Source: Rhizobium lentis
GTDB lineage: Bacteria > Pseudomonadota > Alphaproteobacteria > Rhizobiales > Rhizobiaceae
Length of the DNA stretch: 64,000 nucleotides
Direction: 5' to 3'
NCBI RefSeq assembly: GCF_014200175.1
Contig: NZ_JACHBD010000003.1
Span: 186,001 to 250,000 of the forward strand
In this document: positions 19,905-61,338 of the stretch, one piece after another
Layout of the letters: each line of letters opens with the position of its first letter
Position numbering within the stretch: position 1 is the stretch's first letter
Made by a program: the position numbers and the translations under genes
The notes under the pieces: model-generated
Databases searched by the model: none
What the model saw: the letters and a program-made list of their open reading frames with translations, nothing else
Told to the model about the DNA's origin: nothing

Positions 19905-20516
19905 TTATGCGCTGGGAAATTCCGCCAGCCGGGCGGCGTAGCGCGCCATAGTGTCGACTTCGAAATTGACGAAATCACCGGCCTGGCGCTCGCCCCAGGT
20001 GGTGACCTCAAGCGTGTGGCGGATGAGCAGGACGTCGAAATCCGTGCCGTCGACCGCGTTGACCGTCAGCGAGGTGCCATCGAGCGCGATCGACCCCTTT
20101 GGGGCGACGAATTTCGCCAGATGTTCGGGTGCGCGCAGGCGGTAACGCGTGGCGTCGCCCTCCGATGTCACCGAGAGGATTTCCGCCTTGCCATCGACAT
20201 GGCCGGAAACGATATGGCCGCCGAGCTCGTCGCCGATCTTCAGCGACCGCTCAAGGTTGATGCGGCTGCCTTCCCGCCAGGTGCCGATCGTCGTCAGCCG
20301 CAGCGCCTCCTCCCAGGCCTCGACCTCAAACCAGCGGTCGTTGCTGCCTTCCTGCGGCAGGCCAGTCACCGTGAGGCAGATGCCGGAATGGGAGATGGAG
20401 GCGCCCATATCGATGGTGGCGGGATCGTAACTCGTCGCAACGCGGAGCTTGATGCCCTCCTTTAGCGATGAAACGGACTCGATCATGCCGATATCAGTGA
20501 CAATTCCGGTGAACAT
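19905..20516 (-). CDS. ribE: Riboflavin synthase (alpha subunit)
   Basis: Dismutates two lumazines into riboflavin plus the pyrimidine precursor. 203 residues from the ATG at 20516. Two homologous lumazine-binding barrels: MFTGIVTDIG with SHSGICLTVTG in the first and GHIVSGHVDGKAEI with LDGTSLTVNAV in the second. The start overlaps the ribD stop by one base (TGATG), which couples translation. Last gene of glyA-nrdR-ribD-ribE. The next riboflavin gene, ribH, is displaced by the islet downstream. Confidence 0.97.
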   Translation of the reverse strand: MFTGIVTDIGMIESVSSLKEGIKLRVATSYDPATIDMGASISHSGICLTVTGLPQEGSNDRWFEVEAWEEALRLTTIGTWREGSRINLERSLKIGDELGGHIVSGHVDGKAEILSVTSEGDATRYRLRAPEHLAKFVAPKGSIALDGTSLTVNAVDGTDFDVLLIRHTLEVTTWGERQAGDFVNFEVDTMARYAARLAEFPSA

Positions 20517-21826
20517 CAACTCTCTCTTTCATATTCATCCAGGCGATCTGCGCCGAAGATACGCGTGCCCATATGGGCGAAACCGGATGGTATGTCGGTT
20601 GCATCAAGCGGCGATTCAATACCGTCCGCGCCGATGATGACGGGCGCCTGGTAAAGCTGGATGCGGTCGACGAGACCGGCTTCCAGGAAAAGCCGCGCCG
20701 TCTTGGCGCCCCCCTCGACCAGAAGCGAAGAAATGCCGCGTGTCGCAAGCGCCGGCAGCAGGATTTCCGGATGATAGGGATTGCAGTAGACGATCTCGAC
20801 GCCGGCGGCTTCCAGTGCGGCGCGGCGGGAGTCCATGTCGGTGGCGTTGGTGGGTGCGGTACCCCCCTCTGCCCTGCCGGGCATCTCCCCAACAAGGGGG
20901 GAGATCGGCTGGGGGCTGGCGCCCGGCCCTACATCTGCTGTTGATCGTGATGACGAGACATCTTTGGAATTCGGATCCCGCTCCTTGCTGATCTCCCCCG
21001 TTGTTGGGGAGATGTCCGCCAGGACAGAGGGGGGTAAACCCTCCGCATCCGCCGACAAGGGCCACACCTGCTCGCTCGCCACCAAGATCACCGGCACGTC
21101 CCGCGCCGTCGCAACCAACTTGCTCGTCAGCGGCAACGCCAAAGACGGATCGAGTACGATGCGGATCGGCGACTGCGCCTCCATGCCGAGTGTGCGCACC
21201 GTCAGCAGCGGATCGTCCGATATCGCCGTGCCGATGCCGACCAGGATCGCGTCGGTTTCGGCGCGCAGCGCCTGCACCTCGGCGCGGGCCTCCGCGCCGG
21301 TGATCGCCACCTGTCCCTCCCCCGCACGGCCGATCATGCCATCGGCAGAAACGGCAAGCTTGAGAGTCACATAGGGCCGGGACTTCGTCTGGCGGGTGAG
21401 ATAACCGGCCAGCGAACGCCGGCCCTCGGCTTCCAGCACACCTGCATCGACCTCGATGCCTGCGTCACGCAGCATGGAAATGCCGCGGCCGGAGACCCGC
21501 GGATCGGGATCGGTGACGCTGATGACGACGCGGGCGACGCCATAGGCGATCAGCGCCTCGGCACAGGGCGGCGTCTTGCCGTGATGCGAGCAGGGTTCGA
21601 GGGTGACATAGGCGGTGGCGCCGCGGGCAGCCTCGCCGGCTTCGGCAAGCGCCTGCGGCTCGGCATGCGGCCGGCCGCCAAGGGCGGTGACCGCCTGGCC
21701 GACGATGATGCCATTCTTGACGATCAGGCAGCCAACAGAAGGGTTGGTGGCGGTGCGGCCGAGATGCCGGCGCGACAGCCGGATCGCCGCCGCCATGAAA
21801 CCTTCGTCATCCGGCTTGACGTTCAT
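20516..21826 (-). CDS. ribD: Bifunctional pyrimidine deaminase/reductase RibD with in-frame insert
   Basis: Carries out the second and third steps of riboflavin synthesis. 436 residues, against about 360-380 usually. The deaminase domain (1-145) has its zinc site in HAE (54-56) and PCSHHGKTPPC (78-88). The reductase domain (about 150-436) has KLAVSADGMIG and LLVEGGAKTARLFL. Between LVASEQ (ends 253) and RRAALEAAG (begins 334) lie about 80 residues of unlike, Ser/Pro/Gly-rich sequence. They are encoded by an element with long inverted arms (20861-21036) without breaking the frame. Both catalytic domains are otherwise complete, and the insert should lie in a surface loop of the reductase domain. 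Confidence 0.95.
   Translation of the reverse strand: MNVKPDDEGFMAAAIRLSRRHLGRTATNPSVGCLIVKNGIIVGQAVTALGGRPHAEPQALAEAGEAARGATAYVTLEPCSHHGKTPPCAEALIAYGVARVVISVTDPDPRVSGRGISMLRDAGIEVDAGVLEAEGRRSLAGYLTRQTKSRPYVTLKLAVSADGMIGRAGEGQVAITGAEARAEVQALRAETDAILVGIGTAISDDPLLTVRTLGMEAQSPIRIVLDPSLALPLTSKLVATARDVPVILVASEQVWPLSADAEGLPPSVLADISPTTGEISKERDPNSKDVSSSRSTADVGPGASPQPISPLVGEMPGRAEGGTAPTNATDMDSRRAALEAAGVEIVYCNPYHPEILLPALATRGISSLLVEGGAKTARLFLEAGLVDRIQLYQAPVIIGADGIESPLDATDIPSGFAHMGTRIFGADRLDEYERES
20861..21036. repeat. Palindromic element inserted in frame in ribD
   Basis: Left arm 20861-20905 and right arm 20990-21036 are inverted copies of each other with only a few mismatches. Both contain the core CTGCCNGGCATCTCCCC / its complement and an inner hairpin CTCCCCAACAAGGGGGGAG, with about 85 bases of spacer between the arms. 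The whole is about 176 bp. The same architecture, size and core occur at 61161-61338 between moaD and moaE. It translates without stops in the ribD frame. Confidence 0.9.
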
Positions 21827-61160: not shown

Positions 61161-61338
61161 AGATCTCCCTCCTCTGCCCTGCCGGGCATCTCCCCGACAG
61201 GTGCGGAGATTGGCTGGGAGTGCCGGCTCGCCCAAACAATCAAAGTTTCAGCCCGGCGGAAAGGTAAAGGGGCAGGAAGGTCGTGCCACGTGTGATCTCT
61301 CCACCCGTGGGGGAGATGGCCGGCAGGCCAGAGGGGGG
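61161..61338. repeat. Palindromic element between moaD and moaE
   Basis: Left arm 61161-61210 (core CTCTGCCCTGCCGGGCATCT) and right arm 61294-61338 are inverted imperfect copies around an 83-base centre; each arm can itself form a hairpin. Size, order and core match the element inside ribD (20861-21036). It lies inside the moa operon. Confidence 0.88.

Follow-up and report, generated by a model that had tools for sequence, protein, structure and literature searches.

A multi-copy rhizobial palindrome lies in frame within ribD of Rhizobium lentis and probably adds a disordered loop to the enzyme

The ribD gene of Rhizobium lentis carries, in frame, one copy of a palindromic rhizobial element that is found in many copies, mostly between genes. 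We consider it highly probable (about 85%) that this copy is an insert, likely brought in by transposition, that is expected to be translated into a disordered surface loop and that its host protein would tolerate. The element would be a MITE-like sequence moved by a transposase, and its copies would survive inside genes only at exposed loops and with a length that keeps the frame. The cell would tolerate such an insert because the folded part of the enzyme is left untouched.

The window, i.e., the whole stretch of 64,000 nucleotides analysed here, carries ribD on the minus strand (20516..21826). The reading frame comprises 436 codons without a stop, and Pfam recognises in its product a deaminase domain and a RibD_C domain, the latter split in two stretches. 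The rows nearest to this protein in RibD comparisons belong to named Rhizobium genomes; the host is a Rhizobium, not a Rickettsia. The element, delimited by its inverted repeat, its RNA fold and its alignment with other copies, spans 20860..21036 (minus strand) including the terminal TA dinucleotides, that is 177 nt or 59 stop-free codons, and occupies residues ~264-323 of RibD. It has two inverted arms of 60 nt (20860-20919 and 20977-21036) with 85% complementarity. Folded as RNA, the coding strand reaches -118.2 kcal/mol, whereas shuffles average -72.5 (z -10.6) and none of 200 folds as stably, so that the palindrome is far beyond chance. In the direction of the gene, a first 45-nt arm (20990..21034, minus strand), matched in frame at gene offset 792, encodes PPSVLADISPTTGEI; it is followed by a core of 83 nt (20907..20989, minus strand), then by a second 45-nt arm (20862..20906, minus strand), also recognised by arm match, that encodes ISPLVGEMPGRAEG. 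The initial annotation had described a RibD of 436 residues with long inverted arms and no stop codon, which the list of open reading frames, the inverted repeat and the RNA fold confirm. It had also credited the element with about 80 extra residues: an in-frame palindrome is indeed there, but it accounts for only 59 codons, the remainder of the surplus being variable loop sequence that flanks it. Two matches of low E-value in Rfam were plant microRNA models, far under their gathering scores, and were read as artefacts of a long hairpin.

An AlphaFold2 model of RibD, built with 48 chosen sequences, has a mean pLDDT of 81 and is matched by Foldseek to solved RibD structures. Residues 254-321 (codons at 20864..21067, minus strand) form its only stretch of at least three residues with a pLDDT under 50, lying between strand 246-250 and helix 328-340 of the reductase domain. 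Since low pLDDT is confined to this stretch, the insert is predicted to form a disordered surface loop, a possibility that had been raised beforehand and that the model bears out. The insert likely adds a floppy, harmless loop to RibD.

Further copies of the element had been expected in the genome, some of them within genes, and both kinds were found by BLAST and protein searches. BLAST of the element against its own genome gives 27 matches, reduced to about 15 elements, and nearly all the other copies lie outside recognisable genes. For example, an arm scan of the window, its sequence and the comparison across relatives reveal a second member of the family in the moaD-moaE spacer (61167..61338, no strand assigned), which is not in a gene. 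An arm pattern with at most two mismatches matches 134 of the 148 genomes of the genus, many of them with only one or two matches, and reaches its maximum in the relative G015 (60 forward and 49 reverse matches); the reversed control pattern gives at most one match per genome. With at most one mismatch, 70 of the family's 151 genomes, belonging to 55 of 109 genera, contain the pattern, and none contains the control. Two genomes from one other genus of the family (G220 and G311) stand out by far higher counts, with 160 + 163 and 121 + 116 arm matches at this same threshold. Among plasmids, 186 of 72,556 records have an arm match, mostly from Rhizobium and Sinorhizobium. On the plasmid of S. fredii NGR234 (L315), an insert of about 1.2 kb breaks the second arm, and its open frame resembles by eye an IS transposase.

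In G015, 56 elements were derived from 100 of the 109 arms, i.e., among the arms listed. As arm searches allow up to 13 substitutions in 45 positions, arm matching favours conserved arms. Aligned with one another, the copies of this genome run from TA-CCCCCCTCTGYCCTGCCGGRCATCTCCCC... to ...CAGAGGGGGG-TA around a core that varies; the element ends are TACCCCCCTCTG, with TA at the termini. At least three of the six frames are open in 38 of 43 non-genic copies of G015 (about 24% in shuffles), which would make survival in frame easier. No target-site duplication was found, and a clean empty site was lacking, at the moaD-moaE spacer, in the relatives of G015 (whose nearest flank is 79% identical) and at three plasmid sites. 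A duplication of TA alone would not yield the in-frame lengths of the in-gene copies.

Going beyond the initial annotation, ribD is not the only gene invaded: FtsY and CobN also carry the element, and other palindrome families occupy the same loops. In the genome of the window, the N-terminal region of FtsY contains a copy (the protein was recognised by eye there and by Pfam in G015). Four of the 56 elements of G015 are in frame within conserved genes (one in RibD, one in FtsY and two in CobN), the 52 others being outside any recognised conserved gene. Pfam was run on 30 of the 38 open reading frames that span G015 elements; it recognised one FtsY, one CobN and two DUF559 or DUF1697 proteins, whose domains start after the element, and no family for the 26 others. 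Searched alone against 5.8 billion proteins, the RibD insert matches 85 RibD and one FtsY. In the same way, the FtsY insert gives 84 matches (67 RibD, 15 FtsY and 2 CobC) and the CobN insert gives 61 (57 CobN and 4 urea carboxylase/amidolyase). These matches come from Rhizobium, Sinorhizobium/Ensifer, Mesorhizobium, Neorhizobium, Peteryoungia and Brucella endophytica among others. A single reading frame, PPSxLPxISPTRGEI...ISPLVGEMxGRxEGG, is used by 62 of the 65 matched in-gene arms; the second arm of the RibD of G016 is in a different one. The database entries that have the RibD insert are annotated plainly as RibD. Many RibD, FtsY and CobN entries annotated as ordinary contain repeat-derived segments.

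CobN has two invaded loops. From 56 genomes with a match, 30 loci were fetched; loop 1 was measured in 28 of them and loop 2 in 29, and the length is a multiple of three in 26/28 and 29/29, respectively. Among the 28 loci folded, long loops are far more stable than shuffles: at site 1, 14 of the 15 loops of at least 165 nt have an RNA fold z no higher than -2.9, and at site 2 all 20 loops of at least 180 nt have one no higher than -3.2. Short loops have a z near zero, except for site 1 of G002 (-3.0) and site 2 of G014 (90 nt, -5.7). Sorted by eye, the long loops contain members of the ribD-element family or of a variant of it, along with at least two other palindrome families. One of these others occupies CobN site 2 in the window's genome, which yields 27 BLAST matches for it; for the second, there are 98 in that genome and 95 in G012. 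The moaD-moaE spacer of relatives, read in 29 of 30 loci and sorted by eye as well, holds four different palindrome families or none. Two genomes, G007 (L332) and G016 (L346), carry at CobN site 1 a copy whose loop length is 2 mod 3, and their CobN is split into separate open frames; this is either the real damage caused by a bad length or an assembly error.

RibD is present in all the 61 genomes searched. From 30 loci, 28 open reading frames were extracted (L042 and L054 failed the motif); 13 of them have a whole or half element and 15 have none, so that, as had been anticipated, the insert is absent from the RibD of some relatives while both flanks are intact. Across 80 named loci, the untruncated loops measure 15-46 residues where the element is absent and 72-112 where it is present. 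A tree of RibD calculated without the loop took 56 of 81 rows (the window and L105-L160 without L140). The element is in 17 of the 56, L113 being called a carrier by eye; the carriers are located within the etli-leguminosarum-sullae-mongolense clade, next to an Agrobacterium tumefaciens row and in one other row. Short loops are nested among the carriers, in R. leguminosarum Norway, R. ruizarguesonis, R. ecuadorense and R. sp. BK196. They display three distinct junctions, each with AGAGGGGG, the end of the second arm, beside the upstream flank, which is the pattern expected of recombination between short direct repeats. Losses could thus have occurred by recombination between repeats that share this arm end. 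Orthologues that lost the element (L125, L127 and L116) have 374-376 codons from stop to stop, and the RibD of G005 and G007 retains the second arm alone.

The RibD loops also hold other repeats. In six genes (L106, L111, L112, L113, G012 and G019), the arms themselves contain additional short palindromes in frame, YRGRATGLDPSF and GEARAGEAGAIDPV or their variants. Furthermore, L124 and L130, from Ensifer and Sinorhizobium, have a different repeat-like insert (FRSPRSRGEGARRADEG in L124), and another family may be using the RibD loop there.

Whether the ribD copies of different clades descend from one old insertion or from several independent insertions into one permissive loop bears on the history of the insert, not on its nature. 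Several insertions are a serious possibility, to which we give somewhat less than even odds. The RibD tree places the carriers in three or more separate clades, and the presence of the element on it needs 8 changes, at least 6 of them forced by starred branches. Moreover, the ribD core of the G015 clade is 59 nt long and resembles the other cores of the genome (best/median identity 0.80/0.70, against 0.84/0.73 among non-genic copies), and those of the leguminosarum clade are 83-92 nt long. However, the scars of loss in the Rhizobium clade fit one old gain followed by later losses, and conversion of a whole element would replace its core too. In G015, the cores of RibD and CobN are as similar to the other cores as these are among themselves; the FtsY core is unlike the others, which does not fit a recent conversion. 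For the ribD core of the window's genome, similarity to any other core does not exceed the level of shuffled sequences.

The arms and the core evolve in very different ways. In pairwise comparisons of 15 ribD genes (105 pairs), the arms have a mean divergence of 0.099, against 0.473 for the core and 0.361 for fourfold sites of the flank, and in 105/105 pairs they diverge less than both; these are 15 of 18 genes, as L121 and L122 were missed by the motif and L032 has no matched second arm. The frame is preserved at the same time: the length of the core is 2 mod 3 in all the 15 ribD genes and, in G015, the distance from arm to arm is a multiple of three in 4/4 in-gene copies against 10/43 others.

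Such slow arms could mean that the insert has acquired a use: the loop would be functional in RibD, as in CobN and FtsY, with the arm peptides under selection as protein. The arm peptides are nearly unchanged in RibD, FtsY, CobN, CobC and urea carboxylase across several genera, and different species retain the element at the same loops. We nevertheless regard a functional loop as improbable. Changes in the arms show the same N/S ratio whether the copy lies in a gene or is a non-genic one read in that frame (Fisher p 1.0 and 0.56), the non-genic arms being all those not placed in a recognised RibD, FtsY or CobN frame, which may include a few genic ones. In the same way, arms are also slow in the intergenic moaD-moaE orthologue (arms 0.079, core 0.259, fourfold sites of moaE 0.421; 10 pairs from 5 genomes). 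Furthermore, the insert has been lost in frame in several species and its core diverges faster than fourfold sites. Peptide selection was thus rejected as the main cause of arm conservation and, as the changes in the arms bear no sign of it, upkeep at the DNA level is suggested. Arm similarity seems to be maintained in the DNA itself, through either constraint or conversion between copies, and the frame through selection on the host gene.

A hairpin as extreme as that of ribD might also remain untranslated, through ribosome bypass or RNA processing, as PMC6649704 mentions for palindromes of a yeast mitochondrion. Besides the strength of the fold, this would have the merit of rescuing the frame-breaking CobN copies of G007 and G016. 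It would need neither a kept frame nor the absence of stops, so that the frame-keeping lengths of the 15 ribD cores and of nearly all the CobN loops, together with the lack of stops in the compared ribD inserts, count against it and make it very unlikely. Lastly, the idea of an ordinary lineage-specific RibD loop, with a repeat character due to chance or to an assembly error, can practically be dismissed: the fold is far outside shuffled values, the same insert is present in independently sequenced named genomes, the many copies elsewhere in the genome refute it, and the loop without repeat character that all Rhizobium RibD would then share, named by the initial annotation as the outcome opposed to its proposal, did not appear.

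A translated palindrome tolerated by RibD thus remains the preferred reading, and the occurrence of other families in the CobN loops, along with the nested palindromes of some RibD loops, makes the invaded loops look like landing sites shared by several palindrome families. A bolder proposal, which we hold tentatively and below even confidence, is that the RibD loop, the two CobN loops and the FtsY tail are standing pads, repeatedly colonised in frame by several families whose arms are then rewritten by conversion from copies elsewhere. If this were true, essential proteins would carry a selfish segment that is continually refreshed. More generally, selfish DNA has probably reshaped housekeeping proteins repeatedly outside Rickettsia. 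These free-living, plant-associated bacteria offer a dense record of species that documents gain, nesting, half-loss and scarred loss, and the neutrality of the insert and the upkeep of arms inside genes become testable in culturable laboratory strains.

Protein-coding palindromes have been known from Rickettsia and later, as short intragenic REPs, from other bacteria. A literature search (titles and abstract openings, with few subscription journals covered) found no report of in-frame palindromes in rhizobial genes. The Rhizobium-specific intergenic mosaic elements (RIME) were reportedly described by Osteras in 1995, and the ribD element is presumably a rhizobial repeat of RIME type. Like RIME, it belongs to a repeat family of the Rhizobiaceae, most copies of which are outside recognisable genes; unlike RIME, which is named for its intergenic place, the ribD copy and some others are inside genes. 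The ribD element would probably be an intragenic form of RIME-type repeats.

The palindromic elements of Rickettsia, as portrayed in PMC2229807 and PMC10969869, measure ~105-150 bp, are also found between genes, contain open frames and are fused in frame into conserved protein genes such as gmk; one host enzyme was shown to stay active. The rhizobial element is likewise a long, multi-copy hairpin, both intergenic and in frame inside conserved genes. However, it belongs to another lineage and measures 150-180 nt or more, and the resemblance to Rickettsia put forward by the initial annotation is supported for behaviour only. Furthermore, the arms of the rhizobial element are alike between species, whereas the copies of Rickettsia are said in PMC6649704 to lose repeat identity over time.

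According to PMC3733652, GTAG- or CGTC-tagged REPs are palindromic repeats within conserved genes of several bacteria, their clusters encoding up to 82 residues, and different REPs lie near the same recB site in two Xanthomonas species. The rhizobial palindromes are comparable in being inside conserved genes and in sharing sites between different ones. Nevertheless, those REPs are described there as tagged units of 20-40 bp, whereas the rhizobial element has arms of 45-60 nt, TA-CCCCCC ends that bear no GTAG or CGTC tag and, mostly, more than 150 nt. Bacterial MITEs (e.g., ERIC, Correia/NEMIS and RUP) are presented in PMC2229807 as short inverted repeats without a transposase gene, with TA ends and with open frames that can fuse to host genes. 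The element shares with them its terminal inverted repeats, the absence of an internal transposase gene, its TA ends and its open frames, but it differs in using repeatedly the same loops of conserved enzymes. Compared with the protein-coding palindromes already known, the novelty of the rhizobial ones thus lies in larger elements, several families, shared loops and preserved arms.
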